Assembly (NCBI GenBank): GCA_900469625.1
Contig: UBXV01000013.1
Location: forward strand, 124,001-188,000
From: Hyphomicrobiales bacterium
GTDB taxonomy: Bacteria; Pseudomonadota; Alphaproteobacteria; Rhizobiales; Rhizobiaceae
Direction of reading: 5' to 3'
DNA: 64,000 bases
Below the pieces are notes generated by a model. The model was not told where the DNA came from. It worked only from the letters and a program-made list of their open reading frames with translations, and searched no databases. Positions 34,889 through 64,000 of this stretch are shown here, piece by piece (position 1 is the stretch's first letter; every line of letters starts with the position of its first letter). A program made the position numbers and the translations under genes.

Positions 34889-36067
34889 TCAGTGCAGCGG
34901 CGTCGCGCTTTCGGCGTCGCGCAATTGAAAGCCGCCGATTGCGAGCTTACCGTCGCCGAACGGAAGTGCCCGGCGTTGGCGAAGCTCGTCGTCGATGACG
35001 GCCTGCATGCCGGACTTGAATTTCCGGACACTGAACTGCGCGGTGTGCGCGCGGATCATCTCCGGACGGAAGGCGTCTTCGCGAGCCTCGAAAGCGTAGA
35101 CGGCCTTGATCAGGGCCTCGACGCTCTGGTGCTCGAACAGCAGACCCGTAAGGTTGGGTACAACGGTCTCAAGCGCCCCGCCCGCCCCGAAGGCAATGAC
35201 AGGCCGGCCGCTGGCCATGGCCTCCACTGGCACGATGCCGAAATCCTCTTCGCCGGGGAAAACCAGGGCGCGGCAGCGCGCCAGCTTCTCCTTCAGGACC
35301 GCGAACGGCGCCCGTCCGAGGAAGGTTACCGTTGGGCCTGCCATGCGCTTCAACCGGGCTATGTCCTGTTCCTTGCCGTCGCCGATCACGACCAGGTTCT
35401 TGCCCATCTTCGTGAAAGCCTCGACCGCAAGGTCAATCCGCTTGTAGGGAACGATCTGGCCCGCGCAGAGATAGAAGTCCTCGATCTGCGTCGATGGCGC
35501 GAAATCCTCCGTGCTGACAGGTGGGTAGATGACGGTCGCCGGACGTCGGTAATACTTGCTGATCCGGGCTGCGACGTGATGGGAATTGGCGACGAAGCGA
35601 TCGACGCGCATGCTGGTATTGACGTCCCAGCTGCGCAGCATCGGCGCCAGCACCGGCATCATCATGCGCGACAGCAGGCCAGCGCTCGACCGATAGGCGT
35701 GGTAGTGATCCCAGAGGTAGCGCATCGGCGAGTGGCAGTAGCAGATGTGGGCCGCATGCGGCGGCGGAATAATCCCTTTCGCCGGCCCGGACTCGCTTGA
35801 AATGATCAGGTCGTAGCCGCTGAGGTCCAGGCTTTCGAGCGCAAACGGCATAAGCGGCAAGAACGACTGGTAATGCCCGATCGCGCCGGGAATGCGCTGC
35901 AGGAAGGACGACGTGATCTTGTGCCTCTTGATCGTGTCCGACACGTGGCCGGGATCGTAGACCAGAGTGAAGATGTCAGCCTCGGGATAGAGATCGCAAA
36001 GCGATTCGATCACCTTTTCCCCGCCCCGCATCGATACCAGCCAGTAATGAACGATTGCGACGCGCAT
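34889..36067 (-). CDS. GT4 family glycosyltransferase
   Basis: This 392-aa GT-B enzyme has an N-terminal acceptor domain from MRVAIVHYWLVSMRGGEKVI to YCHSPMRYLWDHYH, and a C-terminal nucleotide-sugar domain with YLCAGQIVPYKRIDLAVEAF and the GT4 Ex7E signature EEDFGIVPVEAMASGRPVIA. Proteins with this beginning (RGGEKV, CHSPMRYLWD) are frequent in rhizobial exopolysaccharide loci. The start at 36067 has AGGGGAG four bases upstream. It is divergent from the export operon beginning at 36400 and probably adds a sugar to the lipid-linked repeat unit. Confidence 0.93.
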   Translation of the reverse strand: MRVAIVHYWLVSMRGGEKVIESLCDLYPEADIFTLVYDPGHVSDTIKRHKITSSFLQRIPGAIGHYQSFLPLMPFALESLDLSGYDLIISSESGPAKGIIPPPHAAHICYCHSPMRYLWDHYHAYRSSAGLLSRMMMPVLAPMLRSWDVNTSMRVDRFVANSHHVAARISKYYRRPATVIYPPVSTEDFAPSTQIEDFYLCAGQIVPYKRIDLAVEAFTKMGKNLVVIGDGKEQDIARLKRMAGPTVTFLGRAPFAVLKEKLARCRALVFPGEEDFGIVPVEAMASGRPVIAFGAGGALETVVPNLTGLLFEHQSVEALIKAVYAFEAREDAFRPEMIRAHTAQFSVRKFKSGMQAVIDDELRQRRALPFGDGKLAIGGFQLRDAESATPLH

Positions 36068-36252
36068 AGCGCTCCCCTCTGCAATGATCCTGCTGCAGCA
36101 TGGGGCACACGGGGCACGCGTGCACAGAGCCAAGAACGGTCCGAGCGTGCATCCGAAGGAACGAGTGTCCTACTCGAAAGGTTTAGGGGCTACCCGCCAC
36201 CGAAGGGCATTTGGCAGGCTGCCGGGGTCACCCTATCCGATGGTGCCGAGGG

Positions 36253-36272
36253 TTTAGGCCCATTCCCCTAAA
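36253..36272. promoter_or_regulatory. TTTAGG-N8-CCTAAA palindrome in divergent EPS promoter region
   Basis: A perfect 6+6 dyad lies in the 332-bp region (36068-36399) between the divergent GT4 and OPX genes. A third TTTAGG half-site stands at 36182-36187, and GATTAG is repeated at 36275-36280 and 36285-36290. The arrangement suggests a regulator-binding region governing both directions of the polysaccharide locus; the protein is unknown. No other gene is seen in the region. Confidence 0.4.
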
Positions 36273-36399
36273 GGGATTAGCCGCGATTAGACGGCAGGGA
36301 ATTTACCTCACGCGTTTTGGGCCGACAATCATTCCGATACGCCACACCGGACTTTGAGCAGTCCGGCCCGGTTGCGCACAGGAACACCAGCGAGGCCCC

Positions 36400-37725
36400 A
36401 TGCCCCATGCCGACCACCGTCTTCTCCGTCGCCTGTCGTCGCTGGGCCGCGCTTCGACCTTCTGTCTGGCAATCGGCCTGAGCACGCTTGCCCCGCTCTG
36501 TCAGGCCCATGCCGAGCCTGTGTTCCGATTGCAGCCGCAGACGAGGGTCAAGGTCGCGATCGTCGAATGGGTCGCAGCGACAGGCGAATACAAGGAATGG
36601 ACCGCGCTCAACGGCGAATATGTCGTGTCGCCGGCCGGCACGATTTCGGTGCCGCTCGTGGGTGAAGTCAAGGCCCGTGACCGCACGCCCGCGGAACTCG
36701 CGGCCACCATTGCCGATCTCCTGAAGCAGCGCACCGGCCTCAGCAAGGCGCCGGAGACCTCGGTCGAGGTTGTCCGCTATCCCATGATCTACGTGACCGG
36801 CCTCGTCGACCGGCCGAGCGAACTGGAGTTCCGCCCTGGCATGACGGTGATGCAGGCGGTGGCGATGGCCGGTGGGCGCGAGCGCCGCACCAACCCCGCA
36901 GGCGGCTACTCCGACATGGAGCAGATCCGCTACACCGGCGAACTGAACCGGATGGAACTGGAGATGATGCAGCTGGCCGCCCGGCGCGCCCGGCTCAGGG
37001 CAGAGTTCACCGACAGCACCAAGGTCGAGTTTCCCCAGGCGCTGAAGACGTCCAACGGCGCCGCCATCCAGCAGATCGTGCGCGACGAGAGCACGCTGTT
37101 CGACGCCAGGCTCGAGGCAACGCGCCGCCAGCTCGATTCCCTTGCCGAACTTGGCGCGCTTCTCAAGAACGAAATCGACGTGCTGGAGGAAAAGACGACC
37201 GTCCAGCAGCATCAGATCGACATTTCCCAGGACGAACTCAAAGGCGTATCGAAACTGGTGAGCGACCAGACGGTGACGAAGTCGCGCCAGACGGCTCTCG
37301 AACGCATTGTCGCCGAGCTGCAGAGCGAGAAGCTCGACCTCCAGGTCGCCGCCATGCGCGCCAAGCAGAAGCTCAGCGAAACCGAGCGCGATGCGGTGAC
37401 CTTGCAGGGTCAGCGCCGCACCGAGGCTGGTCGCGACCTGCAGACGACGGAAGCATCGATCGAAGATCTGAAGCTGAAGCGCAGCACGACGCTGCAACTG
37501 CTGCAGATCAACGGTGCGTCCCTCTCCCGTTTCGCCGACATGAAGGCAATGGACCTGGAGCCGCTGGAGTACTGGATAACCCATGGCGGCGGCACGGACC
37601 CGGCGGTGAAAGTCACGGAAGCGACGCTGCTGGTTCCAGGCGACGTGCTCGACGTGCGCTCGGCGCTGACGGCGGCGCTCGACAACAAGCTTCTGACATC
37701 CGTGGGCATCGAACAGTCCCAGTAG
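36400..37725 (+). CDS. OPX-type polysaccharide export protein (ExoF/Wza-like)
   Basis: This 441-aa protein has a signal peptide (about residues 1-38, ending CQAHA). The polysaccharide-export domain follows (YVVSPAGTISVPLVGEVKAR, with D and TPAELAATIADLL) and then a SLBB-like soluble ligand-binding part (VRYPMIYVTGLVDRPSELEF, MTVMQAVAMAGG). A long helical stretch (about 180-390) rich in Gln/Glu/Arg/Leu is predicted coiled coil, as in ExoF of Sinorhizobium and unlike short Wza. It probably forms or contacts the outer-membrane/periplasmic channel with the Wzc-like partner encoded 46 bp downstream. Confidence 0.9.
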   Translation: MPHADHRLLRRLSSLGRASTFCLAIGLSTLAPLCQAHAEPVFRLQPQTRVKVAIVEWVAATGEYKEWTALNGEYVVSPAGTISVPLVGEVKARDRTPAELAATIADLLKQRTGLSKAPETSVEVVRYPMIYVTGLVDRPSELEFRPGMTVMQAVAMAGGRERRTNPAGGYSDMEQIRYTGELNRMELEMMQLAARRARLRAEFTDSTKVEFPQALKTSNGAAIQQIVRDESTLFDARLEATRRQLDSLAELGALLKNEIDVLEEKTTVQQHQIDISQDELKGVSKLVSDQTVTKSRQTALERIVAELQSEKLDLQVAAMRAKQKLSETERDAVTLQGQRRTEAGRDLQTTEASIEDLKLKRSTTLQLLQINGASLSRFADMKAMDLEPLEYWITHGGGTDPAVKVTEATLLVPGDVLDVRSALTAALDNKLLTSVGIEQSQ

Positions 37726-37771
37726 CAACAGCTGACCGACTGAGGCGCAATGTATTTCGTGGGGAACAGCA

Positions 37772-40045
37772 ATGGTCGTGCATGATATCTCGAAAATCGT
37801 TCTGGATGACAGCTTCGAGGCCAAGCGATCGGCCGGCCAGGAGAGCATATCCTTCCGCGACGTCTCGGACTTCCTGCGGCGACATCTCGTGCGCATCGGC
37901 ATCTGTGCGATCATCGGCCTGGCGCTCGGCGTCCTTTACGTCCTCAACACCGCTCCGACGTTCACCGCGACAGTCCGCCTGGTAATCGACCCCGAACAGG
38001 GCCGCATCGCCTCGCAGGACGCCTCGACGGGAACGATCATCATCGAGGCGGCCGAAATCGCCAGCGAAGTCGAAATCGTCAAGTCCGAGGCGATCGCCCG
38101 CGCCGTCATCGAACAGCTCGACCTGACCAACGATCCCGAGATCGTGGGTGGCGGCGTTTCGATCCGCGGCATGATCGGCGCGCTGTTTTCGTCCGGGTCC
38201 AAGAACGCCGACGGCGATGCGGCAGACGATGAATATCTGATGCGCCGCACCATGGCCGCCTTCCTGTCACGCGTCACCGTGCGGCGTGTCGGGCAATCCT
38301 ATGTGCTGGAGATCGGCTATTCCTCGACCGACCCGCAAAAGGCGGCCAAGACCGCCAATGCCATTGCCGGCGCCTACATCCGAACCGGCATGAACGAGAG
38401 ATCGGACGCCGCCAAAAGCGGCGCTAAGTGGCTTGAAAGCCGCCTGATCGAAGTCGGCGCGCAGGCGCGCGCCGCGGCCATGACCGTCGAGGAATTTCGC
38501 GCCAAGAACGACATCACCACGGTCGGCACCGCATCGACGCTCGACCAGCAGCAACTGTCGGAACTCAGCAGCCAGATGTTGGCGGCGCGCGCCGCGACGG
38601 CGGCTGAATCGGCCAAGCTGATGACCCTGCAACAACTGATGTCCAAGGACACGATGGTTGCCAGCGTCAACGACAGTCTCGACAATCCCCAGATCCAGAA
38701 ACTGAACGAGGAAATGCGGCTCGCGGCCGCCAAGCTCGACAATCTGAAAGTCCGATACGACAGTGGAAACCCCGCAATTATCGCTGCACAGGCGGATATT
38801 GCGCGGCTTGACGCGTCGCTTCGCAATGAATTCCTGCGCATCGAGCAATTTTACAAGTCGAATGTCGAGATCGCCAAGACCCGGGAGAAGCTCCTGGAAA
38901 GCGAACTTGCCAATCTGACGGCGACTGGCGCCGGCAAGAATGTCGCCCGGGTCGAACTCTCCGAGATGGAGAGCCGGGCAACGACCTATCGCAACATGTA
39001 TGAGGGCATTCTCCAGCAGTTGATTGGCGCGCTGCAGAAGCAGTCCTTTCCTCTCGGCAAGGCCCGTATCGTGACGGCGGCCACCGCCCCGCTCGGCAAG
39101 ACCTGGCCCAAGCCGTCAACCATCATGCCGTTTTCCCTGATGTTCGGACTGGCGACGGGGTTGATGCTGTCGGTCCTGCGCGATGGCCTCGACCGGCGCG
39201 TCAGCTCCAGCGAGCGGCTGCGCGCCGAACTCGGCATCACCTCGCTCGGACACGTGCCGATGTTCAGAAGCAGTCCGCGCCCCCACCAGCCGCCGATCGC
39301 CTCCACCATGCTGCCGCTGCGCTCGGTGCTGGACATGCCCTACTCCCGGTTTTCCGAGGCGTTGCGCGGCGTCAAGAACTCGGTCGATTCCGCCTTCCCC
39401 TCCAATGCTTCGGCCGTGATCGGCGTGACTTCGGTCGGCCCCGGCGAGGGTAAGACGACGATCGCTGCCAACCTCGCCCAGCTCTACATGAACGAGGGAA
39501 CCTCGGTGCTGCTCGTCGACGCGGATTTCGTCGGTTCCCGCCTCAGCCGCGTGACCACGGAAGACGGCGCCGGCTTCGGCATGGAAAGCCTGCGCATCCT
39601 CGGCATTCCCGGCCAGTATTCCAGAAGGCGGTCGAGCGAGGCGGCGCAGCACGTCGAGGACTTCGACGGCAAGGCGGTGCGCTGCGTACCGGTCCTGACG
39701 GTCGACCAGACACGCAAGGCCGCGGTCGCCCACCAGCGCTACGGCCACCTGCCGGCACTGAAGTCGGAACTCGAACTTTTGCGGCAGCGCTACAAGGTGA
39801 TCATCGTCGACATGTCGGGTTTTGAGGATTCGGCCGACACCCGCGTCATCTGTACCTATCTCGACGGCATCGTCGTGGTGCTCGGACAATCCGACAAGAT
39901 GACCGTCGAACGGTTGAGCGAGGCGCTGTCGACGTTCGGCAAGTCGCGCGTAGCCTTGCTCGGCGTCATTTCCAACAGAAGCGACGGCCCTCGCCGTACC
40001 AACATCCGCTGGGACCGAAAACAATGGCGCAAGTTCAGAAAATGA
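37772..40045 (+). CDS. Wzc/ExoP-like polysaccharide copolymerase with P-loop kinase-like domain
   Basis: This 757-aa inner-membrane protein has TM1 at about residues 42-60, a Wzz chain-length domain with extensive periplasmic coiled coil (about 70-430), and TM2 at about 455-475 preceded by a Pro-rich segment (LGKTWPKPSTIMPF). The cytoplasmic BY-kinase-like domain (about 540-757) has Walker A GPGEGKTT with K561, Walker A' VLLVDADF and Walker B VIIVDMSGF. The C-terminal tail is basic (RKQWRKFRK) and has no tyrosine cluster, unlike Wzc, so autophosphorylation control may be altered or absent. It controls polymer length and export with the OPX protein. Confidence 0.9.
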   Translation: MVVHDISKIVLDDSFEAKRSAGQESISFRDVSDFLRRHLVRIGICAIIGLALGVLYVLNTAPTFTATVRLVIDPEQGRIASQDASTGTIIIEAAEIASEVEIVKSEAIARAVIEQLDLTNDPEIVGGGVSIRGMIGALFSSGSKNADGDAADDEYLMRRTMAAFLSRVTVRRVGQSYVLEIGYSSTDPQKAAKTANAIAGAYIRTGMNERSDAAKSGAKWLESRLIEVGAQARAAAMTVEEFRAKNDITTVGTASTLDQQQLSELSSQMLAARAATAAESAKLMTLQQLMSKDTMVASVNDSLDNPQIQKLNEEMRLAAAKLDNLKVRYDSGNPAIIAAQADIARLDASLRNEFLRIEQFYKSNVEIAKTREKLLESELANLTATGAGKNVARVELSEMESRATTYRNMYEGILQQLIGALQKQSFPLGKARIVTAATAPLGKTWPKPSTIMPFSLMFGLATGLMLSVLRDGLDRRVSSSERLRAELGITSLGHVPMFRSSPRPHQPPIASTMLPLRSVLDMPYSRFSEALRGVKNSVDSAFPSNASAVIGVTSVGPGEGKTTIAANLAQLYMNEGTSVLLVDADFVGSRLSRVTTEDGAGFGMESLRILGIPGQYSRRRSSEAAQHVEDFDGKAVRCVPVLTVDQTRKAAVAHQRYGHLPALKSELELLRQRYKVIIVDMSGFEDSADTRVICTYLDGIVVVLGQSDKMTVERLSEALSTFGKSRVALLGVISNRSDGPRRTNIRWDRKQWRKFRK

Positions 40046-40962
40046 TGCCGGAGATGGAAAGCCGTCCCGAAGCCCGCCCGGTGACGGTCGCGATCGGCAT
40101 CCCGAGCTGCGGACGCAAGGACATCCTGTCCGCCGTCCTGCCCCTCATCAGCAGGCAGACCCGGCAGCCGGACGAGATCTATGTCTGCCTGTCGTCGCCG
40201 GAGGACATGGATCCCAACTGCGTCGCGGGGCTTTCTGTCCGGGTCATCGTCATCATCTCCGAACGTGGCAGCTGCCGGCAACGCAACCGTATCCTCGCCG
40301 CGGCCAGATCGGATGTCATCCTGTTTCTGGACGACGACTTCCTGATGGCGCCCTCCTATATCGAAGAGGTCGGGCGGCTGTTCTCCGAGAACGAAGATGT
40401 TGTGGTCGCCACGGGCACGCTGATTGCCGACGGCATCATCGGGCCCGGAATTTCGGTCGACAGCGGCCTGCAACTGATCGAGGCCGACCTGGCGAAGCCG
40501 CGGCCGGCGCCGACCTTCAAGCCGATCTACAACGCCTATGGCTGCAACATGGCCGTCAGAACCGGCCCGGCGCGCGACGCGGAACTCAGTTTCGACGAGA
40601 ACCTGCCGCTCTACGGCTGGCTTGAGGACGTCGATTTCAGCCGGTTGGCAGCAACGCTCGGTCGCGTGGTGCAGGCAGACAGCCTCGTCGGCGTTCATCT
40701 CGGGACCAAGAAGGCGCGCACCCCCGGCATCAAGTTCGGCTACTCGCAGATCGCCAATCCCATCTACCTCATTCGCAAGGACACGATGAGCATCCGGCAT
40801 GCCGGCGTGCAGATCGTGCGCAACCTCATTGCCAATGTGGTCAAGGTCTGGAGACCCGAGCCCTGGGTCGACCGGAAAGGGCGCCTGCGCGGCAATGCCC
40901 GCGCATTCCTCGATCTGCTTGCCGGTCGGCTCGCGCCGAAAAACGTCGAAGGGCTCGAGTGA
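40024..40962 (+). CDS. GT2 family glycosyltransferase
   Basis: This 312-aa GT-A enzyme has an N-terminal TVAIGIPSCGRKDILSAVL, donor-binding region DEIYVCLSS, the metal-binding DxD in ILFLDDDFLMA, and a likely acceptor/catalytic segment YGWLEDVDFSRL. Similar proteins (ExoU/ExoW-type) add sugars to exopolysaccharide repeats. The gene overlaps the end of the Wzc-like gene by 22 bp. No clear ribosome-binding site precedes the ATG at 40024, and in-frame ATGs at 40042 and 40045 are alternatives. It is followed 4 bp later by a GT4 gene, so the two are probably cotranslated. Confidence 0.9.
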   Translation: MAQVQKMMPEMESRPEARPVTVAIGIPSCGRKDILSAVLPLISRQTRQPDEIYVCLSSPEDMDPNCVAGLSVRVIVIISERGSCRQRNRILAAARSDVILFLDDDFLMAPSYIEEVGRLFSENEDVVVATGTLIADGIIGPGISVDSGLQLIEADLAKPRPAPTFKPIYNAYGCNMAVRTGPARDAELSFDENLPLYGWLEDVDFSRLAATLGRVVQADSLVGVHLGTKKARTPGIKFGYSQIANPIYLIRKDTMSIRHAGVQIVRNLIANVVKVWRPEPWVDRKGRLRGNARAFLDLLAGRLAPKNVEGLE

Positions 40963-40966
40963 TATC

Positions 40967-42274
40967 ATGACGGCACTCACTCCCGACCGCGTGGTCGTCA
41001 TCAACGATCGCTCCATCAGGGTCGGGGGTGCGACGAACCTCGCGATCCTTTCGGCCGAACTTCTGCAGCAGCGCGGCATATCGGTGACGTTTTTCGCCGG
41101 TGACGGCACGCCCGCCGAAAAGCCGACCGCAGACATGATCAATCTCGACGCCCTTCCCTTGCTCGAGCGGCGGCGAAGCGAAGCGCTGCGTCTCGGTCTC
41201 TACGATCCCTATGTCCACGATGCCTTGAGCGGGTTGATCGCCAGTCGCGACACCCCATCGACGATCTATCACGTGCACGGCTGGTCGAAGATCCTGTCGC
41301 CGGCGATCTTTCGGTCACTTTCGCCGGTGCGCGACCGCGTCGTCCTCCACGCGCACGACTATTTCCTCGCCTGCCCCAACGGCGGCTTCGTCAATTTCCG
41401 CGCCAACCGCGTCTGCGACCTGAAGCCGATGTCTGGGCGTTGTCTTGCGACCCAGTGCGACAAGCGTGGGCTGCATGAAAAAGCCTGGCGCACGGCGCGG
41501 CACATGCTGCGAGAACAGCTTTTCCCGACGAAACGAATGGCCGCAAACATCATCGCCGTGCATGAGAGGATGCGGACCTACTTCGAGCGCGCCGGCATGG
41601 ACGCCAGCCAAGTGGTGACGGTCCGCAATCCGGTCGTCCCATTCGTCGACCACCAACTTCGCCCCTGGGCCAACCGGAACTTTGTCTTCGTCGGCCGGCT
41701 GGAGCCCGAAAAGGGGTTCGAGGATGCGGCAAGGGCAGCGAGCCTTGCCGGGGTGCCGCTGCATTTCATCGGCGATGGCGCTGGTCGCGCGCTGATCGAA
41801 AAGACCTATCCCGAGGCTATCGTTCACGGTTGGAAAACCAGGGAGGAGATGCGCGATATCATCGGCAGCGCCCGGGCCGTGGTCGTCTCGTCGCGTGTGC
41901 CCGAACCGTTTGGGCTCGCGGCACTCGAAGCGGTTTCCAGTGGCATACCGGTCATCGTACCTGACGCCGCCTTGCTCGCCGACGAAATCGCGAGCCTCGG
42001 TTGCGGCCTGAAATTCAGCATCGGCAACGTCGAGGCGCTTGCCGATGCAATGCGTGTGCTCGCAGCCGACGACAGACGTCTCCAACACATGAGCGGCAAC
42101 TGCTTGCGGCATGCAGCAAACCTTGCCCATACGCCCGAAACCTGGGCGGACGCCTTGATCGATCTCTACGACCACGTTTTGCGAAGGTCCCGCCGAACCG
42201 GAATAGATGTCCGCGACTATCACCACCCATTGCCGATGCGTGCGGGCGATCTCAGCCGCGAGGACGTGTCGTGA
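40967..42274 (+). CDS. GT4 family glycosyltransferase
   Basis: This 435-aa GT-B enzyme begins VVVINDRSIRVGGATNLAIL and includes YHVHGWSKILSPAIF and VVLHAHDYFLACPNGGFVNF. Its C-terminal domain has FVGRLEPEKGFEDAARAASL and the Ex7E motif PEPFGLAALEAVSSGIPVIV. A Cys-containing segment (CDLKPMSGRCLATQCDKRGL) resembles the zinc-like insertion found in some bacterial GT4 proteins. The start at 40967 immediately follows the GT2 stop. It contributes another sugar to the repeat unit. Confidence 0.92.
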   Translation: MTALTPDRVVVINDRSIRVGGATNLAILSAELLQQRGISVTFFAGDGTPAEKPTADMINLDALPLLERRRSEALRLGLYDPYVHDALSGLIASRDTPSTIYHVHGWSKILSPAIFRSLSPVRDRVVLHAHDYFLACPNGGFVNFRANRVCDLKPMSGRCLATQCDKRGLHEKAWRTARHMLREQLFPTKRMAANIIAVHERMRTYFERAGMDASQVVTVRNPVVPFVDHQLRPWANRNFVFVGRLEPEKGFEDAARAASLAGVPLHFIGDGAGRALIEKTYPEAIVHGWKTREEMRDIIGSARAVVVSSRVPEPFGLAALEAVSSGIPVIVPDAALLADEIASLGCGLKFSIGNVEALADAMRVLAADDRRLQHMSGNCLRHAANLAHTPETWADALIDLYDHVLRRSRRTGIDVRDYHHPLPMRAGDLSREDVS

Positions 42275-42491: not shown

Positions 42492-43169
42492 ATGCTGTCC
42501 GTATCTGATGGCGCTGCACGACAAGGCCATACCGCGCGCGCCGCCATCGCAGCCCGCCGCGCCAGCAGATCCAAGCGTCTGATCGACGTCGGCGTATCCA
42601 TTCTGGCGCTGATCTTCCTGGCGCCGGCACTGGCCGTGATCGCCATCGCGCTGATGATCGTGGACGGAAGGCCCATCCTGTTCCGGCAGTCCCGCGTCGG
42701 CGCACAGGGAAAGATGTTCGAATGCCTCAAGTTCAGGTCCATGCGCCTCGACGCGGCCGAACGGCTGGCCGAACTTCTGGCCTCCGATCCGGAGCGAAAC
42801 AAGGAGTGGATGGAAAAGCGCAAGCTCGTCGGCGACCCGCGCGTGCATTGGCTGGGCAAGATCCTCAGAATGACGTGCCTGGACGAGCTGCCGCAATTCT
42901 ACAACGTGCTGCGTGGGGATATGAGCCTGGTCGGACCACGGCCGATTTCACCGGAGGAGACCGAGAAATACGGCCCCAACCTCCACTACTACACCGCGCT
43001 TAAGCCCGGCATCACCGGCATGTGGCAGGTCCGAAGAAAGCCGGACACCACCTATGACGAGCGCGTGCAGTTCGACATCGATTACTTTCAGTCCCGATCG
43101 ATCTACCTGGACATGGTGATCATCATCAAAACGGTCGGCGTCGTCCTCTTTGCAACAAACGAGACCTGA
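42492..43169 (+). CDS. ExoY-like undecaprenyl-phosphate sugar phosphotransferase
   Basis: This 225-aa initiating glycosyltransferase has one N-terminal TM/reentrant helix (about residues 31-53). The bacterial sugar transferase signature follows: KRLIDVGVSILAL, GRPILFRQSRVGAQGKMFEC, KFRSMRLDA, LRMTCLDELPQFYNVLRGDM and LVGPRPISPEE, with ITGMWQV at the C-terminus. It lacks the four extra TM helices of WbaP and so is a short ExoY/monotopic form. It transfers a hexose-1-phosphate to undecaprenyl phosphate. The start at 42492 has GGAGGGG upstream; a GTG at 42471 is possible. About 217 bp separate it from the GT4 gene, enough for its own promoter. Confidence 0.94.
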   Translation: MLSVSDGAARQGHTARAAIAARRASRSKRLIDVGVSILALIFLAPALAVIAIALMIVDGRPILFRQSRVGAQGKMFECLKFRSMRLDAAERLAELLASDPERNKEWMEKRKLVGDPRVHWLGKILRMTCLDELPQFYNVLRGDMSLVGPRPISPEETEKYGPNLHYYTALKPGITGMWQVRRKPDTTYDERVQFDIDYFQSRSIYLDMVIIIKTVGVVLFATNET

Positions 43170-43176
43170 CGGGCGG

Positions 43177-43278
43177 TTACCAGATGAACAAGAATACGGC
43201 CGCCCAGAAGATGAGGCACAGCAAGACCACGGACCAGCGAATGGCAAGCTTGGTGTTCCATGAAGGCCGATTGGTCAT
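43177..43278 (-). CDS. 33-aa single-TM micropeptide candidate
   Basis: A tiny ORF reads MTNRPSWNTKLAIRW followed by a hydrophobic helix to the C-terminus (SVVLLCLIFWAAVFLFIW). GAGGGC precedes the ATG by 4 bases, and an in-frame ATG 8 codons upstream is also available. The basic N-terminus plus a single membrane span to the end suggests a bitopic inner-membrane peptide. It ends 7 bp from the ExoY-like gene, convergent with it. Small membrane proteins such as ExoX inhibit ExoY in Sinorhizobium, but this one is far shorter and unrelated in recognisable sequence. Confidence 0.5.
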   Translation of the reverse strand: MTNRPSWNTKLAIRWSVVLLCLIFWAAVFLFIW

Positions 43279-43605
43279 GGCGCCCTCTTTTTCCAACGAC
43301 ATCCGTCTCAACATCAGCTGCGAACTCCCCTCTCCCGTTAACCTCACCGACATCTCCCTGGCGACCACGGACCAGGAGGTGCGGATGTATCGCGGGCGCC
43401 ACTGTTCACGCCATAGCCCAACTTGTAGCCCGAAACCGGCTATACCCGAATCATGGCTACAACGCACACCATACCTTAGGAGTTGCGAATTTTCTGCAAA
43501 CAGGGGCAATTTCGCAACAGTCGGTAGGCGACACCCTTGGCGCGCGGCCGTGCAAGACCCCGCGCCGTCTTCCGACCCGCGCCGTTTCCTCCCGGTCGTG
43601 GTGCA
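43279..43605. promoter_or_regulatory. Intergenic region before flippase gene with inverted repeat
   Basis: This 327-bp region is bounded by the 33-aa ORF and the Wzx-type gene. A perfect dyad GTTGCGAA-N21-TTCGCAAC lies at 43482-43518, about 88 bp before the flippase start, in the least GC-rich part, so a promoter/operator is plausible. No other gene is supported. Confidence 0.35.
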
Positions 43606-45129: not shown

Positions 45130-45175
45130 GGAACGCAGACAGCAACACGGACGCGGCAACCAGGGGAGACACATC

Positions 45176-45997: not shown

Positions 45998-46029
45998 CAA
46001 TCGCAGAGCGGTAACGATGGGGCCGGGTA

Positions 46030-51508: not shown

Positions 51509-51532
51509 GGATATTGCCTTCGCACGTCGCGT

Positions 51533-57300: not shown

Positions 57301-60300
57301 ATCGGGAATGAACTCGAAATGATCGCCCGCCCGGCCGAAGCGGATCTGCAGGGCATCATGCCGTGCGACGACCGTGTCGAGCGCCTGGCGAAGGCGCGCG
57401 CGGTCGAGCGGCCCGTCCAGAACCATCGTGAAGGACTCGTTGAAGGAGCAGGACGCGCCGTCGCCGACCTGGGCGGCGAGCCAGATTTCCTTTTGCGCTT
57501 CGGTCAGCGGTGCCGACGACGGACGCACAGGCCGGGCTGCGGCGGGCACCGCCACACTATCCTCGGCCTCGTTCTGCCCGCCGAAGATGCCGACCGACTG
57601 GAGCGCATCGAGACTGGTGCGGAAGGCCGCGGCGATGGCCTGAAAGTCGGCCTCGCTGTGGGCGGTCGTGAGGAAGCAGGGATAGCCGTCCTGAATGTGG
57701 ATGCCCAGCATGCGCATCTTGCCATAGATCAGGGCGCCGAGCGGATCGTCGCTGCCGAAGTCGGCGTAGAACCAGCTCTTGTAGCCGTGGATCGTCTTTG
57801 CAATCCCGCGCCTTGCGAGATCGGCGTTGATCTCGGCGACCAGCGCCTGCGTGCGATCGGCGACCGGCCCATAAAGCGCTGCGCCCTCGCCCCTGATGTG
57901 ATGGAGCACGGCCTTGGCCGCTGCCAGCACCAACGGATGGCGCACGAACGTACCGGCACAGAAGGTCGGCGCGGTCATCGGGACACTGTCGTCGCCATAG
58001 TTCCATGTGCCGCCGTCGAGCGCATCCATGTAACGGCTGTCGCCGACCAGGACGCCGATCGGCATGCCGCCGCCGATCACCTTGCCATAGGTTGCCATGT
58101 CGCCCTTGATGCCCCAGATGGCCTGAATGCCGCCGGGGTCGACGCGAAATCCGGTGACGACCTCGTCGAAGACAAGCGCGAATTCGGATTGGGTTGCGAT
58201 CGTGCGCAATTCCCGCACGAACTCGACCGGCCGCAATTCCGGATGGCGGCTCTGGACCGGTTCGATGATGACGGCGGCGATATCCGCCGCATTGGCCTTG
58301 ATCCATTCAAGGCTTTCGGGTTCGCCATAGCGAAGCACCGTCATGTTGGCGACCGAGGCGGATGGAATGCCTGCGGCAACGGGGATCGCCACCGGCGCAC
58401 CCGCCCGGTTCTTGCCCTTGACCAGCACCTCGTCGAACTGCCCGTGATAATCGTTGCCGAAAATCACGATCCGGTCCCGGCCGGTCACCGTGCGGGCTAC
58501 CCGCATGGCCGCCATCACCGCTTCCGAACCGGTGTTGCAGAAGGTCACGCGCTCGTGTCCGGTCATCTCGGCGATCATTGCCGCGACTTCGCCGGCAAGC
58601 GGCGTCTGAGGACCGATGGCAAATCCGGCGTCGGCCTGCGCCTTCACAGCCTCGACGACGAAATCCGGGGCATGGCCGAAGGCCGTCTGACCCATGCCGT
58701 TGACGAGGTCGATGTATTCGTTGCCGTCGACGTCCCAGATGCGCGATCCCTTTGACCGCTCGGAGACCACGGGAAAGACCATTTCCTTCCAGTCCTGGCG
58801 GAACCCGGCGGCCGTGCGCGGGTCGGCCAGCCATTTGCGGTTCTCGCCCGTAAAGCGCTTCGACTTTCCGTTGCGCGCTTCATAGGCTGCGATGAGGTCC
58901 GTCACGAAAGCCTGCTTAGCGGGCGTCATCTCGCTTGCAAGGCTCTTGGCGCCCGGGCGGTAAAGCTTGATGCGGCCTGCGCCGATTTCGCTCTCGTCCT
59001 GACGGCCGACGGCATCCTTCGGTGCCGGCTGCGGCGCAGCCGCTTGGATCGAGGTGGAGACCGCCGCAGTCGTCGTCGCGGCAACCGGCGCGGCGACGGA
59101 ACCCGTCGCCTGCAGCACCTGCAACTGCTGCGAAACGATCGTCTGCAACATCTGCAGTTGAGAGTGGAGGACGGCCTCGATCCCGGCGACGTTCGCGACC
59201 GTCGCGACGGGAGCAACCACCGGCAACAATGGCACCGGTCCGGCCAGCTGTGCCGCGGCGGCGGTTGCCGCGATTTGCGGCGTCGCTACCGCTGCTGCCG
59301 GCACCTGTTGCGGTTCAGGCGGTAGCTGCGCATCAAGGTGCGAAGCCAGATCGGCCACGGTCGGAATGTTGCTCAGGAGTTCGCGGAAGGACAGCTTGAC
59401 CTTGTAGTCCTTCTCGATCCTCTGGGCGAACTGGCCGATGAAAAGTGAATCGAAGCCGAGTTCCAGGAACGTCGCACCCGCTTCGCCCGGCCCGAGCGCT
59501 TCCCCGGACATGTCGCCGAGCAAGGCGAGAAGGGCAGTCTGCAATGCCGGAATGCGGCTTGCGGCAGCAACTGGTGTGGCAGCATTCATGATGTTGATCC
59601 CGTCAATCGGTTGCGCTTGAGTGTCGCTTGAGGAAAGCTCGTGCCCGGCGTGTGGCGCGACCGGCAACGTCGGTCGGCCTTCACTGCGGCGCACCGAGGC
59701 AGGTGCCTCGATCCAGTGGCGTTGCCGCTGGAACGGATAGGTCGGCAGCACCAGGGGCGCTTGTCCGGGGGCAGACGAAGTCGGCCAGTTGAGTTCGCAA
59801 CCCGACATCCACAGCTTGCCATGGGCTTCGGCGAGGACTTCGCCGGCCGCATGCGCGCGGTCGTGCTCGGGCAGCGACTGCACGACAGCCGTGATCGCAT
59901 CGCGGGCAAGGGTCTGTGCCGCGAAGACCGACAGGGTTCGGCCCGGGCCGACCTCCAGCAACACCGGCTTACGCCCGTCGCAAAGCGTTGCCAGCCCGTC
60001 TGCAAAGCGCACGGGCGCACGGCAATGTTTCGCCCAGTAGTCCGGCGACAGGCCCTGCTCGATCGTCTGCCATCCACCGGTGACGCAGGAGATATAGGGT
60101 GTAATGGCCGTGCCGTAGGTGACCTTTGCCGTCTCCTCGCGCAACGCGTCCGTGACGCCGTCCATCATCGCCGAATGAAACGCATGCGACGTGTGTAGTC
60201 GGCTGTAAGCGATGCCGGCACGCTCCATGGAAGCGCAAGCCGCATCGACGGCAGCAAAGGTTCCGGAAATTACGCAGAGCTTCGGGGCGTTCACCGCCGC

Positions 60301-62403
60301 GATTTCGACGCCCTCGCCGAGATGGGCGTTGACCGTTTCGACCTCGGCGCGCACGGACACCATCGCCCCTTGCGGCTGCGACTGCATCAGACGGCCGCGC
60401 GCGGCGACCAGCCGCAATCCGTCCTCGAACGAAATGACATTGGCAAGCGTCGCGGCAACGAACTCGCCGACGCTGTGGCCGATCATGATGTCGGGCTTCA
60501 GGCCGCGGCTCATCCACAACCGCGCCAGCGCATGCTCGACGATGTAGAGGCTGGGCTGTGCGATGCGGGTCTCGCGTTGCTCGTCGGCCATGGCCTGGCT
60601 GACCGTGCCGGCGTGGCAGATGAAATCGCGCAGATCGGTTTTCAATGGCGCGCGAAGCAGATCGGCGCCGCGGTCGATCCAGCGGGTGAATTCCGGTTCG
60701 CGGCCATAAAGACCGGCTCCCATGCCGACATATTGCGAACCCTGGCCGGGAAACATGAAGGCGATCGGCGGGCGATCAGCCGCCACTGCGTTCGGCACTC
60801 GGTCCGCGCCCAGACGGTCGATCGCCTGCTGCATGTCGCTGACGGCAACCGCGGTGCGGTGAGCGAACGCCCGCCGTCCAGACTGCAGTGTGTGGGCCAC
60901 CTGCGAAATCGCCGCATCGGGGTTTGCCTGCAAATGGTCGCGCAGGTTCAGCCGCATGGCGGCAAGGGCCGCCTCGTTGCGGGCGGACAGCGGCAGAATG
61001 TACGGTCCTTCCGATACATCCTCAATATCGTCTTGGGGTGCAGGCGCCTGCTCCAGAACCAGATGCACATTGGTGCCACCAACGCCGAACGAACTGACAC
61101 CGGCACGGCGGGGGCCGTCCGTCACCGGCCAATCGGCGGTGCTGTCGGGGATGTAGAAGGGGCTCGCGTCAAGATCGATGCGCGGGTTCGGGCGCTGGTA
61201 ATTCGCCATGCCCGGGATCTTGGCATGGTAGAGCGCGAGCGTGGTCTTGATCAGCCCGCAGACGCCCGCCGCCGCATCGAGGTGACCGACATTGCCCTTG
61301 ACGGAACCAAGCGCGCATTGCCGCCGGGCGTCGCCGGCATCGGAAAAAGCGCTCTTCAGGCCGCCAAACTCGATCGGGTCGCCGAGCGGTGTCGCGGTCC
61401 CGTGGCATTCGACATAGCCGATCGTGCGCGGATCAACGCCGGCGTTTGCAAGGGCCGAGGCTATCGCGTCCGCCTGCCCCTCGACGCTCGGTGCCGTAAA
61501 GCCGATCTTGTCGGCGCCGTCGTTGTTGATGCCGTAGCCGCGAATGACGGCGAAGATCCGGTCGCCGTCGCGCAGCGCATCGTCCAGACGTTTCAACAGC
61601 ACGATGCCGGCGCCACTGCCGAAGACCGTTCCGGCCGCCTTTTCGTCGAACGGCCGGCAGACGCCGTCGGGCGAAACCATGCCGCCCTCCTGATAGATAT
61701 AGCCGCGCCGCTGCGGGATGGTGATCGACACGCCGCCGGCAAGCGCCATGTCGCACGTGTAGGTCAAGAGGTTCTGGCAGGCCTGGGACACGGCCAGAAG
61801 CGATGTCGAGCAGGCGGACTGGATGGCGATGGCCGGTCCGCGCAGGTTGAACTTGTAGGCGATGCGGGTGGCAAGCACATCGGTCAGCGAACCGACAATC
61901 TGCTGGAAGCAGCCGATCTGGTAGTTGGAGGTGAACTCCTCGGCCTTTGCCCGTTCGCCGAGGACATTGTTGATCAGGTAGGTGGGCATCGACGCGCCGG
62001 CGAAGACACCGACGAGACCCGGATACCGATGGGGATCGTAGCCTGCCCGCTCAAGTGCCTCCCAGCAGATCTCGAGAAAGACGCGATGCTGCGGATCGGT
62101 GACCGCCGCCTCGCGTGGGAACATGCCGAAGAATTCCGCGTCGAACAGCTCGATATCAGGGAGCTGTGGCCGGGCCGGCACGTAATTCGCAGCCGCCCGC
62201 TCCTCGTCGGTGAACGCGTCGTCGATCTCCTCCGGTTTCAGCTTCGAGAAGGCGTTGCCCCCCTGGCACACGAGATCCCAAAGCGCCTCGACCGAGGGGG
62301 CGCCCGGAAACCGGCCGGACATGCCGATGATCGCGATGCCCGTCAGGTCCTGCTCGTCGCGCTCGCAATCGCGGGTTTCGTCCGCACTGTCAAAGACCGT
62401 CAT
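54328..62403 (-). CDS. Hybrid PKS-NRPS: KS-AT-ACP-aminotransferase-C-A-PCP
   Basis: This 2691-aa megasynthase carries KS (about residues 20-445; triad C198, H334, H374), AT (about 550-850; GHSVGE with S644, HAFH near 740, malonyl type), ACP (S986 in GFDSL), an Ala/Val/Gln linker with a short coiled coil, a class III aminotransferase (about 1160-1600; K1441 in YGKVIGGG), C (about 1630-2070; HHIVCDG, H1761), A (about 2090-2575; FTSGSTGAPKGV) and PCP (S2621). The order resembles McyE/MycA: a beta-ketoacyl-ACP is aminated to a beta-amino acyl chain and condensed with an amino acid. Hand alignment gives A-domain pocket DILQLGMIWK, close to the glycine code. AGGAG precedes the ATG. There is no KR, DH or ER. 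Confidence 0.95.
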   Translation of the reverse strand: MTVFDSADETRDCERDEQDLTGIAIIGMSGRFPGAPSVEALWDLVCQGGNAFSKLKPEEIDDAFTDEERAAANYVPARPQLPDIELFDAEFFGMFPREAAVTDPQHRVFLEICWEALERAGYDPHRYPGLVGVFAGASMPTYLINNVLGERAKAEEFTSNYQIGCFQQIVGSLTDVLATRIAYKFNLRGPAIAIQSACSTSLLAVSQACQNLLTYTCDMALAGGVSITIPQRRGYIYQEGGMVSPDGVCRPFDEKAAGTVFGSGAGIVLLKRLDDALRDGDRIFAVIRGYGINNDGADKIGFTAPSVEGQADAIASALANAGVDPRTIGYVECHGTATPLGDPIEFGGLKSAFSDAGDARRQCALGSVKGNVGHLDAAAGVCGLIKTTLALYHAKIPGMANYQRPNPRIDLDASPFYIPDSTADWPVTDGPRRAGVSSFGVGGTNVHLVLEQAPAPQDDIEDVSEGPYILPLSARNEAALAAMRLNLRDHLQANPDAAISQVAHTLQSGRRAFAHRTAVAVSDMQQAIDRLGADRVPNAVAADRPPIAFMFPGQGSQYVGMGAGLYGREPEFTRWIDRGADLLRAPLKTDLRDFICHAGTVSQAMADEQRETRIAQPSLYIVEHALARLWMSRGLKPDIMIGHSVGEFVAATLANVISFEDGLRLVAARGRLMQSQPQGAMVSVRAEVETVNAHLGEGVEIAAVNAPKLCVISGTFAAVDAACASMERAGIAYSRLHTSHAFHSAMMDGVTDALREETAKVTYGTAITPYISCVTGGWQTIEQGLSPDYWAKHCRAPVRFADGLATLCDGRKPVLLEVGPGRTLSVFAAQTLARDAITAVVQSLPEHDRAHAAGEVLAEAHGKLWMSGCELNWPTSSAPGQAPLVLPTYPFQRQRHWIEAPASVRRSEGRPTLPVAPHAGHELSSSDTQAQPIDGINIMNAATPVAAASRIPALQTALLALLGDMSGEALGPGEAGATFLELGFDSLFIGQFAQRIEKDYKVKLSFRELLSNIPTVADLASHLDAQLPPEPQQVPAAAVATPQIAATAAAAQLAGPVPLLPVVAPVATVANVAGIEAVLHSQLQMLQTIVSQQLQVLQATGSVAAPVAATTTAAVSTSIQAAAPQPAPKDAVGRQDESEIGAGRIKLYRPGAKSLASEMTPAKQAFVTDLIAAYEARNGKSKRFTGENRKWLADPRTAAGFRQDWKEMVFPVVSERSKGSRIWDVDGNEYIDLVNGMGQTAFGHAPDFVVEAVKAQADAGFAIGPQTPLAGEVAAMIAEMTGHERVTFCNTGSEAVMAAMRVARTVTGRDRIVIFGNDYHGQFDEVLVKGKNRAGAPVAIPVAAGIPSASVANMTVLRYGEPESLEWIKANAADIAAVIIEPVQSRHPELRPVEFVRELRTIATQSEFALVFDEVVTGFRVDPGGIQAIWGIKGDMATYGKVIGGGMPIGVLVGDSRYMDALDGGTWNYGDDSVPMTAPTFCAGTFVRHPLVLAAAKAVLHHIRGEGAALYGPVADRTQALVAEINADLARRGIAKTIHGYKSWFYADFGSDDPLGALIYGKMRMLGIHIQDGYPCFLTTAHSEADFQAIAAAFRTSLDALQSVGIFGGQNEAEDSVAVPAAARPVRPSSAPLTEAQKEIWLAAQVGDGASCSFNESFTMVLDGPLDRARLRQALDTVVARHDALQIRFGRAGDHFEFIPDFELDVAEIDLSGESDAEALFRQLTDEDARTPFDLANGPLVRASIVRMASDRHRLVFTAHHIVCDGWSVNVLIEELAATYTAAVGGAEAALALPLSFATYATDLAPNAEISNATETFWLDQYKDVPDLPEMPLDRPRSERRSFAGGTVTGHIEADTYKALKKAGAKSGATLFSTLLAALQVMIARLSGQDDIVVAVPSAGQSLLDGQTLVGHCVNLLPLRQTVSSSMRFDEHLKATQQLVLGAFEHQDYTYGTLVRKLGVKRDTHRLPLTEIQFNLERVPDNLEFGGLQTSVASNAKAFSNFDMFFNLTESPKGVRIDVDYNAEVFDRSTIERWIGHLTTLVSALAADITRPIEDLPLLSAAERAWLTEGLNDTAADYDRDAFVFSLFGRRAAEQPTAVAVELDGATMTYGELEARSDALACRIQQAIPEPGQRIALLVERSLEMVVALLAIMKSGHAYVPLDPAHPETRLTQTLEVARVAGVVSDGERAGGLVGKDVAVIRIDGEHAAGGPEKAVPKLPTDAATPAYIIFTSGSTGAPKGVEVSHRALINFLTSMAREPGLTDRDTIVAVTTISFDIAGLELYLPLITGAKVVLAGRQTVRDGFALVGLIESCGATVVQATPTLWQMLLEAGLSRQGLKMLCGGEPLPKPLASSLLGLGGELWNMYGPTETTIWSSVQRIEDGEKPITIGHPIANTQLLILDKSGRVAPIGVTGELHIGGEGLANGYFARSDLTEKAFVDINVGTGAAERLYKTGDVGRRLADGSLQLLGRRDQQIKLRGFRIELGDIEAAMASAVGVRQCAVVAASGKNGDRQLVGYVIPENPADKPTASTLAAHAAANLPAHMVPSFWVLEEALPQTANGKLDRKTLEQRGLPQRVVVAVKVQPRTPLETRLSEIWREVLNAEDVGVDDNLYALGADSLIIFRIAARMLDSGLRLEAKHLMMHPSIAELAAFAETRDEIDLNGAEPPVPSLRDFRNGARRRVEQVSRA

Positions 62404-64000
62404 GAAGCGCTCCTGCGGAAATGGGACATTGTTTTTTTTTGCAAGCCGGCCCGTTCGGCTGCCGTCATTGCGCGGGCACTCGCCGGCGACTTGCCGTCGA
62501 GGAAGCGCGCCAGTTCCCGGATCGTCGGGTGCTTGAACAGCGCGACCACATCGACAGGGCGGGCGAGGCTTGTTTCCAGCGCCGCATGCACCCGCATCAG
62601 CTGGAGCGACGTGCCGCCGAGATCGAAGAAGTTGCGATCGAGTTCCACGGCCTGCAATCCGAGGACATTGCGCCATTGTTCCAGCAGCATGGCCTCGGTC
62701 CGGCTGGCGACCGGCGCGTTTTCGGCCGGCAGCACGTCCGCGGGCACCGGCAGCCTGGCACGGTCAACCTTTCCCGACTGATGCAACGGCAACTGCTCGA
62801 GCACCATCACGGCGCTCGGGATCATGTAGGCGGGCAGGCTGTTGCGCAGCCGTTCCATCACGGCGCGGATGAGTTCGGCATCGTCAACGCGCGTGCCCTC
62901 GCGCGGGCACAGATAGCCGACGATACGCTTGTGCGACTGATCGAGGTGCTGGCAGATGACGACGCCGTCGGCGAGCCGCGGATCGCGCCTGAGCGCCGCT
63001 TCGATCTCATCGAGTTCGATGCGCTTTCCATTGAGCTTGATCTGCCGATCGCGCCGTCCTCGAAACAGCAGGATCCCGTCCTCGCCGAGCACGGCAAGGT
63101 CGCCCGTCAGGTAACCGCGGACATCACCCTCGTCCGTATGGATGGTCACGAACCGTTCCGCCGTCAACTCCGGGCGGCGGAAATAGCCGATGGCGACGCC
63201 ATCGCCCGTCAAGACAAGCTCGCCCTCGACGCCGCGCCCGATCGGCCGCTGGTCTTCGTCGACAATCAGGATCCCCGTGTGACTGATCGCACCCCCGATC
63301 GGCACATCCTTGCCGTCGAAGGCTGCGGGAATATCGAAGGCCGTCGCCATCACGGTGATTTCCGTCGGCCCGTAGGCATTGGTCAGGCGGCAGCCCGGAT
63401 GCGCCTTCTGGAAGCGTTTGACATGCTCGGCCGAAGCCACCTCGCCGCCCAGCATCATGTGCCGCAGCGTCGGCAGTTCGCCGCAGGAAAAGTCGGCGAG
63501 AAGATTGAACAGACCGGTCGTGATCAGCGAGACGGTGACACCGTTGTCGCGGATGGCATCCCGCAACCGGGCGACCGAAAAACGTCCGTCCGGTAGCCCA
63601 GCAAGGATCGCCCCGTTGATCAACGCGCCCCAGACCTCGAACGTGGTGATGTCGAATGCGATGGTGCCGGCATGCAGCACCACGTCGCCGCTGCCGAGCT
63701 CGACATAGTTCTGGTCGAGCACAAGCCGGGTGATGCCGCGATGGGGAATGGATACGCCTTTGGGGCGCCCTGTCGAACCCGACGTGTACATGACGTAAGC
63801 CAGGTCGCCGCCGTCCACCGCGACGGGATCGAGCGGGCGCCTTTCAACTTGCAAGAGGCCGGCGACAACAGCACCGAGATCGGCAACCGTGCCCTTCACG
63901 CTCGGCACCAGCCGGATCGTCGCGAGCGTGCAGCTGTCGACGAAGACCACCTTGGGCTCGCAATCGCCGATGACATAATCGAGGTGATCTACCGGGAAGG
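62400..64000 (-). CDS. NRPS adenylation-PCP protein (N-terminus beyond window)
   Basis: The last 533 residues of a leftward NRPS gene are visible; its 5' end is past base 64000. Visible A-domain motifs are AYVMYTSGSTGRPKGV (A3), AFDITTFEVWGALING (A4), NAYGPTEITV (A5), YLTGDLAVL (A7), FRGRRDRQIKLNGKRIELDE (A8) and HQSGKVDRARLP (A10). The PCP follows (NFFDLGGTSLQLMRV). The hand-read pocket is about DIFLMGAVMK, which matches no code I can name. It would load the acyl or amino acid starter passed to the KS of the next protein, with which it overlaps by 4 bp (ATGA). An upstream condensation domain could exist outside the window. An A9 tract near the 3' end may allow frameshifting. Confidence 0.92.
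   Translation of the reverse strand, partial: FPVDHLDYVIGDCEPKVVFVDSCTLATIRLVPSVKGTVADLGAVVAGLLQVERRPLDPVAVDGGDLAYVMYTSGSTGRPKGVSIPHRGITRLVLDQNYVELGSGDVVLHAGTIAFDITTFEVWGALINGAILAGLPDGRFSVARLRDAIRDNGVTVSLITTGLFNLLADFSCGELPTLRHMMLGGEVASAEHVKRFQKAHPGCRLTNAYGPTEITVMATAFDIPAAFDGKDVPIGGAISHTGILIVDEDQRPIGRGVEGELVLTGDGVAIGYFRRPELTAERFVTIHTDEGDVRGYLTGDLAVLGEDGILLFRGRRDRQIKLNGKRIELDEIEAALRRDPRLADGVVICQHLDQSHKRIVGYLCPREGTRVDDAELIRAVMERLRNSLPAYMIPSAVMVLEQLPLHQSGKVDRARLPVPADVLPAENAPVASRTEAMLLEQWRNVLGLQAVELDRNFFDLGGTSLQLMRVHAALETSLARPVDVVALFKHPTIRELARFLDGKSPASARAMTAAERAGLQKKTMSHFRRSAS
62432..62440 (-). other. A9 slippery tract at A-PCP/PKS junction
   Basis: The coding strand has nine consecutive A residues, read as CAA-AAA-AAA-ACA in the A-PCP frame, i.e. 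the heptamer A-AAA-AAA in slippery register. A -1 slip there continues as AAC-AAT-GTC and stays open through the PKS start codon at 62403. This would yield an A-PCP-KS-AT-ACP-AMT-C-A-PCP fusion. The PKS ribosome-binding AGGAG lies about 20 bases further on. Confidence 0.55.

Follow-up and report, generated by a model that had tools for sequence, protein, structure and literature searches.

The window analyzed here, a 64,000-nucleotide stretch of the 6.54-Mb, Ensifer-type genome of a Hyphomicrobiales bacterium (contig UBXV01000013.1, positions 124,001 to 188,000), carries a nonribosomal peptide synthetase–polyketide synthase (NRPS–PKS) line of three proteins, NrpA, NrpB, and NrpC, whose operon is flanked on both sides by exopolysaccharide (EPS) genes. 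EPS assembly genes lie near 39 of 40 such lines from several alphaproteobacterial families, and the joint reading of the two gene sets is well supported. On balance, we favor one pathway over two neighbors, with the line making a variable β-amino-acyl-glycyl unit for the EPS or its precursor; that the product is a covalent peptide–glycan we infer.

The NRPS–PKS operon

A preliminary description of this DNA had proposed an operon of A-PCP, KS-AT-ACP-AMT-C-A-PCP, and C-PCP-TE proteins plus a propeller protein, with a 4′-phosphopantetheinyl transferase (PPTase) of its own (A, adenylation; PCP, peptidyl carrier protein; KS, ketosynthase; AT, acyltransferase; ACP, acyl carrier protein; AMT, aminotransferase; C, condensation; TE, thioesterase). 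Our analysis recovers this operon and corrects its details. Three features had been missed: the formyltransferase-like fold at the N-terminus of the propeller protein, the cysteine of the TE, and a remnant of an A domain in NrpC. Gene starts are those given by a simple prediction script.

49201-50001, plus strand, PPTase (Pfam ACPS, 8e-20)
49922-51508, minus strand, propeller protein with a formyltransferase-like domain and a GH43-like propeller (Pfam GINT1_N, 9e-40)
51533-54331, minus strand, NrpC, C-[A C-terminal remnant]-PCP-TE (Pfam, alignments)
54328-62403, minus strand, NrpB, KS-AT-ACP-AMT-C-A-PCP (Pfam, motif tables)
62400-64346, minus strand, NrpA, A-PCP (Pfam, motif table; cut by the window end at 64000)

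The operon runs leftward from NrpA through NrpB and NrpC to the propeller gene, with 4-base overlaps at NrpA/NrpB and NrpB/NrpC. The 3′ end of the PPTase gene overlaps the convergent propeller gene.

NrpB of the window has the KS C-H-H residues, a malonyl-type AT, the ACP Ser, the AMT Lys, the HHxxxDG motif of the C domain, and the A and PCP motifs; a Pfam scan finds no KR, DH, or ER domain in it. These are the sequence features of a β-aminating type I PKS–NRPS hybrid, and a β-amino acyl product is predicted. The A-domain pocket of NrpB reads DILQLGMIW, a Gly code, and that of NrpA reads DIFLMGAVM. NrpC departs from a canonical C-A-PCP-TE termination module with a Ser nucleophile: the A core is absent, the second His of the C motif is Gln (HQxxxDG), and the TE nucleophile is Cys (GLCVNG, C748). 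No MbtH domain is found in NrpC by Pfam scan. A structure model of NrpC (pTM 0.46) was left unused.

Co-occurrence of the line with EPS genes

The preliminary description left room for two unrelated loci that are merely adjacent. Within the genus, the two halves behave as one unit: orthologs of Wzc (95-100% identity) and NrpC (87-100%) are both present in 7 of 16 genomes and both missing from the other 9. The 7 genomes are collinear save for a broken TIGR04325 gene in G011, although in some of them the LuxR gene or the next one exceeds the compared stretch. In the 9 genomes without the locus, the closest relatives of the flanking genes lie apart from each other (in two of these, G009 and G012, the left flanking gene has a weak relative only). 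The 7 genomes may form one clade, so co-occurrence within the genus is weak evidence by itself.

We therefore rely on a wider set of 40 loci with an NrpB, found by NrpC similarity: 7 from Ensifer, 10 from other genomes (G431, G242, G186, G234, G157, G337, G401, G289, G387, and G724), 7 from plasmid records (SL42, CCGE531, S. fredii NXT3, S. americanum, Rhodobacter CZR27, Loktanella, and Jannaschia), and 16 named loci (Chelativorans, R. calliandrae, R. multihospitium, R. freirei, R. daejeonense, R. mayense, A. albertimagni, R. terricola, R. rhizophilum, Tropicimonas, Pseudooceanicola, two Rhodobacteraceae metagenome-assembled genomes, Azorhizobium, Acidisphaera, and Bosea Root483D1). Many of them are closely related, so the loci are not independent. 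In the order, 14 of 397 genomes match NrpC at E 1e-60, and 10 of these carry an NrpB line; G101, G206, G305, and G411 have no match spanning NrpB and are counted as without the line. In the class, 3 of 385 genomes match at E 1e-75 (the source genome, G724, and G555, the last with no match spanning NrpB). A wider contig scan with NrpC gives at least 79 loci, of which 18 were examined; the remaining 61 (28-37% identity) were classed as generic NRPSs from the match table alone. L108 was dropped for its differing arrangement, and L100 (Methylocapsa) because no NrpB was found, although its NrpC stays in the NrpC motif counts. L099 holds the end of NrpB only, and NrpB of G337 is split across two contigs. 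From a collection of 72,556 plasmid records, 25 of the 914 that match NrpC were listed and 7 opened; the locus of E. canadensis (NZ_CP083371) was read through genome G014.

In 36 of the 40 loci, the contig with the line also encodes, close by, one or more relatives of EPS proteins of the source locus (OPX, Wzc, Wzx, Wzy, ExoY, or GT4a). EPS families are recognized by Pfam alone in 3 of the 40, namely G724 (Wzx, WecG) and Bosea Root483D1 and G337 (Wzy_C proteins); G387 and G289 also have Pfam OPX and Wzx genes. GT4a lies on a separate contig in G401 and G387, yet other EPS genes adjoin the line. In Chelativorans, relatives of ExoY, Wzx, and GT4b stand beside the line, and GT4a, OPX, and Wzc are near the end of another contig. 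At least eight gene orders occur across the 40 loci, with differences among the Ensifer/R. tropici group, the SL42/R. terricola, A. albertimagni, G186, and Bosea types, Azorhizobium, G242, Loktanella, Jannaschia, G289, and G724. By a rough estimate, a 6-8 Mb genome with 4 to 7 Wzc-like matches would have one in any chosen 50 kb in about 4% of cases.

Other comparisons point the same way. GT4a (E 1e-70) is present in 8 of 10 line-bearing genomes of the order versus 34 of 387 others (Fisher p 3e-7), and in 6 of the 10 it is within 25 kb of the line on its contig. Among the plasmid matches listed, 15 records reach 60% identity for NrpC, and precisely these 15 reach 70% for GT4a; they are also the top 15 for GT4b, and DegT (E 1e-60) finds them plus one more. 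Protein distances for Wzx, ExoY, GT4b, and TIGR04325 correlate with those for NrpB (Spearman 0.91-0.97; PPTase 0.85, GT2 0.78, Wzy 0.64, GT4a 0.59), a result that shared ancestry alone would also yield.

The dependence is one-way, as the EPS backbone or the GMC–DegT pair is also found without the line. Paroceanicella has relatives of GT4a, GT4b, GT2, ExoY, GH16, Wzc, Wzy, and the pyruvyl transferase, with NrpA, NrpB, and NrpC absent from the 41 kb read. In S. fredii CCBAU 25509, a divergent GMC–DegT pair (L170, 18054-21149) adjoins genes for Wzx, a Wzy-like protein, and a pyruvyl transferase; the 41 kb read of this polysaccharide locus contain no NRPS line. Independent occurrence, which the preliminary description took as the mark of unrelated loci, is thus seen for the EPS block, but a line without nearby EPS genes is seen in 1 of 40 loci only. 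This pattern fits a decorating module and would not be predicted for a free-standing metabolite cluster.

A predicted near-fixed core with a variable first residue

The KS Cys, the malonyl AT motif, the AMT Lys, and the HHxxxDG motif are kept in every NrpB with a readable motif (34 in motif tables, with G337 from the AMT onward only; G724 by pattern search without the KS; and four more). The NrpB pocket is DILQLGMIW or a near variant of this Gly type in 38 of 39 proteins; DILQLGMIWK is given as a Gly code in the portion of PMC12283262 consulted. The NrpA pocket is DFWNIGMVH in Bosea and DAFWLGGTF in Azorhizobium and G724, with others besides. These correspond to a Thr code and a Val code in the tables of PMC3547906 and PMC9113097, respectively. 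Over 33 loci, there are 23 pocket codes for NrpA versus 5 for NrpB. Set against random columns, conservation of the NrpA pocket is lower in the 7 Ensifer genomes (p 0.02) but not significantly so in 19 Rhizobiaceae (p 0.14); the claim that NrpA varies therefore rests on the count of codes. Together, the motifs and codes of NrpA and NrpB predict a core of one amino acid, two malonate carbons bearing a β-amine, and then, as a rule, Gly.

The third module and its cysteine thioesterase

Of the three proteins of the line, NrpC is the most variable. Among 40 NrpC proteins read, 38 have Cys as the TE nucleophile, the exceptions being Acidisphaera and G387 (Ser); the count comprises 35 of 36 in the alignment set plus G724, S. 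fredii, and S. americanum, with G289 unreadable. The elbow is mostly GxCx[N/H/S/A]G, with strict GxCxG in G724 only and GFCAAA in G186-type proteins. NrpC of G724 is a C-A-PCP-TE protein with Cys, whose A domain bears a Gly code, and the form without an A domain may therefore be derived. Methylocapsa also has a C-A-PCP-TE protein, with no NrpB. An A remnant of about 90 residues is present in Ensifer, Chelativorans, G242, and 7 Rhodobacterales-type proteins; it is much reduced or missing in Rhizobium, Bosea, Azorhizobium, and G186-type proteins. This variation suggests a third module that, in many lineages, is decaying into a handover device with the Cys TE as its conserved part.

Partner genes beside NrpC

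In Rhizobiaceae-type loci, the propeller protein adjoins NrpC. Active sugar N-formyltransferases have the catalytic motif Asn-x-His. The propeller protein, as read by eye, has ALSFSDQ where this motif is expected, and the motif is apparently absent; the likeness to formyltransferases is a fold match only. Its model (pLDDT 73.8) matches ArnA and WbkC in the formyltransferase-like part and GH43 in the propeller part by Foldseek, and no sequence in the PDB matches at E 1. Other genera of the family and of the order encode distant relatives, at 26-35%.

In six lineages (Azorhizobium, G242, G186, Acidisphaera, G724, and G289), a PAF-AH/PETase-like hydrolase comes right after NrpC:

L070, 6556-7722
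L073, 1325-2365
L101, 13027-14124
L102, 12643-13542
L182, 3884-4969
L187, 12675-14102

Loktanella has an S15-like hydrolase near the PPTase, and CZR27 is annotated alike. The propeller protein and both kinds of hydrolase are possible candidates for the transferase.

Polysaccharide genes around the operon

Gene calls and family scans recover the whole glycan export set of the preliminary description (OPX, Wzc/ExoP-like, GT2, two GT4, ExoY-like, Wzx, and TIGR04325). EPS genes resume past base 64000, and the list below covers both sides of the operon:

34889-36067, minus strand, GT4a, family 4 glycosyltransferase (Pfam Glycos_transf_1, 2e-22)
36400-37725, plus strand, OPX polysaccharide export protein (Pfam Poly_export, SLBB)
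37772-40045, plus strand, Wzc/ExoP-like chain-length and export protein (Pfam Wzz, CbiA)
40024-40962, plus strand, GT2 glycosyltransferase (Pfam Glycos_transf_2)
40967-42274, plus strand, GT4b glycosyltransferase (Pfam Glycos_transf_1)
42492-43169, plus strand, ExoY/WbaP-like initiating sugar-phosphate transferase (Pfam Bac_transf, 1e-59)
43675-45129, plus strand, Wzx flippase (Pfam Polysacc_synt_3, 5e-29)
45176-45997, plus strand, TIGR04325 family putative methyltransferase (185.5 bits, cut-off 80)
46030-47754, minus strand, GMC oxidoreductase (Pfam GMC_oxred_C, 4e-23)
48030-49211, plus strand, DegT/DnrJ aminotransferase (Pfam, 2e-79)
64692-65549, minus strand, GH16 glycanase (beyond the window end)
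65688-67136, Wzy-like protein, polytopic (beyond the window end)
67133-68416, pyruvyl transferase (beyond the window end)
68722-69354, Crp regulator (beyond the window end)
69598-70287, LuxR regulator (beyond the window end)

Wzx, an initiating sugar transferase, OPX, and Wzc, the marks of a Wzx/Wzy-type EPS locus, are all present by Pfam and TIGR scans; the Wzc/ExoP-like protein scores 226.8 bits against TIGR01005, under the cut-off of 411.7. The left half has no recognized polymerase, so it seems to take the genes beyond the NRPS operon to complete the EPS set. There, the Wzy-like protein (482 residues) has 9 hydrophobic segments in a simple scan and no Pfam match. GT4a has relatives in many EPS loci that bear an NRPS, and some EPS loci that lack one have them too. 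Between 34889 and 70287, the gene calls include no recognized exporter besides Wzx, OPX, and Wzc; 1 kb past LuxR, an RND pump begins (71283-75571, with ACR_tran and HlyD).

The TIGR04325 gene is truncated in G011 (L048) and R. freirei (L090) with its neighbors intact, and may therefore be dispensable. Between the ExoY-like and Wzx genes, 43184-43609 holds an open reading frame that is 50-64% alike among Ensifer genomes and has no Pfam family; it may be regulatory DNA instead. The left flank (29818-33411) encodes an amidohydrolase and two luciferase-like monooxygenases (NtaA/DmoA and MsnO8 families) and is probably a separate catabolic cluster.

The DegT/DnrJ aminotransferase (SFNQFKNMNIGEGG) retains its putative pyridoxal phosphate lysine, as read by eye, and its gene overlaps that of the PPTase, as described earlier, by 11 bases. 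It had been suggested that the product is amide-linked to an amino sugar made by the GMC/DegT pair. This is possible in some lineages but does not hold generally: the stretches read around the line in Bosea-type, Rhodobacterales, G242, G186-type, G289, and G387 loci show no GMC or DegT relative, and the pair is present without the line in CCBAU 25509. We therefore reject this acceptor as a general rule.

Proposed pathway and alternatives

The pathway we favor would run as follows. NrpA would activate an amino acid specific to the lineage. NrpB would add malonate, convert the β-ketone to a β-amine, and then add glycine. NrpC, a decayed third module in the window, would hand the carrier-bound acyl chain to the cysteine TE, whose thioester would be attacked by a sugar group. 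The β-amino-acyl-glycyl group would thereby be moved onto the EPS repeat unit or its lipid-linked precursor, and the decorated unit would exit via Wzx/Wzy/Wzc/OPX. What the sequences themselves show is the gene content, the layout of the operon, the catalytic motifs, the malonyl and Gly signatures, a first position that varies, and a co-location with EPS genes that recurs; domain activity, the order of the chemistry, and attachment to the glycan are what we infer here.

Several observations weigh against this pathway. In the loci read, no gene is identified as coding for the enzyme that would move the product of the line onto a sugar, and the product itself is a prediction. NrpB of G289 has the Thr code DFWNIGMVH instead of a Gly code. 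The second His of the NrpC C domain is Gln in 25 of 36 proteins, the window among them; Bosea-type NrpC has no PCP; NrpC of G387 and G289 is C-C-PCP-TE, with a Ser elbow (GLSFGG) in G387; and the aligned TE His position has no His in CZR27, Loktanella, Jannaschia, and G242. No PPTase relative is found near the line in Azorhizobium, G242, and G387. No EPS gene is recognized less than 10 kb from the line of Acidisphaera, whose GT4a sits on a separate contig. Shared regulation by itself could also account for the co-location. A free peptide could leave the cell through the RND pump, although each of the 9 genus genomes that lack the line also encodes a relative of the pump's adaptor (69-70%). Widening the set of loci makes the linkage firmer and the chemistry less uniform.

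A free β-amino peptide (a signal, metal binder, or antibiotic), released by the TE and co-regulated with the EPS, for example in biofilm life, is the less likely outcome, yet one to be taken seriously. A TE terminates the line, NRPS–PKS hybrids usually make free metabolites, the LuxR and Crp regulators are adjacent, and the pump is close by. Linkage to EPS assembly genes nevertheless persists through rearrangement, and in five annotated loci read there is no dedicated peptide exporter or self-protection gene beside the line (CZR27 has a DMT transporter 8 kb off, and Loktanella an RND pump past the pca genes). It is quite improbable that the product is a lipid-like carrier, primer, or anchor of the polysaccharide, the kind of role put forward for RkpA in the rhizobial K antigen. 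PKSs in capsule loci give a precedent (PMC3557214, PMC3908369, as far as consulted), but NrpB has a single KS module and no reducing domains, and glycine and amine groups predict a short polar unit. Least probable of all are two unrelated loci adjacent by chance. The EPS backbone and the GMC–DegT pair can indeed exist without the line; this alternative is nonetheless ruled out by the EPS genes kept at 39 of 40 lines in many gene orders, and the listed plasmid records of NrpC, GT4a, and GT4b coincide (15 of 16 for DegT).

Relation to known systems

MycA/McyE-type proteins have the domain order KS-AT-ACP-AMT-C-A-PCP. NrpB resembles them in this order and in a GSA-type aminotransferase giving a β-amino thioester; unlike them, it has no methyltransferase found, an amino acid starter loaded by an NRPS, Gly by code as the next residue, and a place in an EPS locus. 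The MycA aminotransferase is described in PMC3547906, in the portion consulted. RkpA and WcbR are type I PKSs of rhizobial K antigen and Burkholderia capsule loci (PMC3557214, PMC3908369). They are the nearest printed precedent: a type I PKS encoded in a surface polysaccharide locus and, in the portions consulted, thought to serve the polysaccharide. NrpA–C differ as an NRPS–PKS hybrid with an aminotransferase and no reducing domains, predicted to make a short amine-bearing peptide unit, not an acyl chain.

In Dlt D-alanylation of teichoic acids, an A domain and a carrier-bound aminoacyl group serve to decorate a glycan polymer. The proposed transfer is alike, whereas the window has a full modular assembly line; no DltB-like acyltransferase is among the families found in its locus, and its A domains score 259 and 267 bits against the DltA equivalog TIGR01734, far under the cut-off of 559.85. 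Streptothricin and butirosin carry a β- or γ-amino acyl group transferred from a carrier to an amino sugar, but are small-molecule antibiotics, not polymers. SulM is reportedly a cysteine thioesterase. The Cys TE of ObiF guards its thioester from solvolysis before ring closure, according to the portion of PMC6668435 consulted. NrpC shares with both the Cys nucleophile in a type I TE and differs in its elbow, in the MbtH domain not found by Pfam, and in having no evident ring-closing substrate.

In the literature searched, which leaves most subscription journals outside, we find no description of an NRPS line serving an EPS. R. freirei PRF 81 carries the locus (L090), and the main text of the R. 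tropici/PRF 81 genome paper has no match for nonribosomal or peptide synthetase. The 11515TR genome announcement, in the portion consulted, merely lists PKS and NRPS clusters.

Implications

That an NRPS line stays with EPS genes across many soil and marine rhizobial relatives suggests a peptide-decorated sugar polymer. We tentatively propose, as a possibility short of even odds, a class of peptide–polysaccharide hybrids: EPS repeats with amine-rich NRPS–PKS side groups that have a near-fixed β-amino-acyl-glycyl core and a species-varying first residue, transferred by the Cys TE or a lineage-specific partner. If so, the chemistry of the coat would shift by altering one adenylation pocket. Secondary-metabolite screens would class such lines as orphan small-molecule clusters and seek the product in the wrong fraction. 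If true, this reading would link nonribosomal assembly lines with surface glycans and give rhizobia and marine alphaproteobacteria charged, species-specific coats, which could bear on symbiosis, biofilms, and phage attachment.

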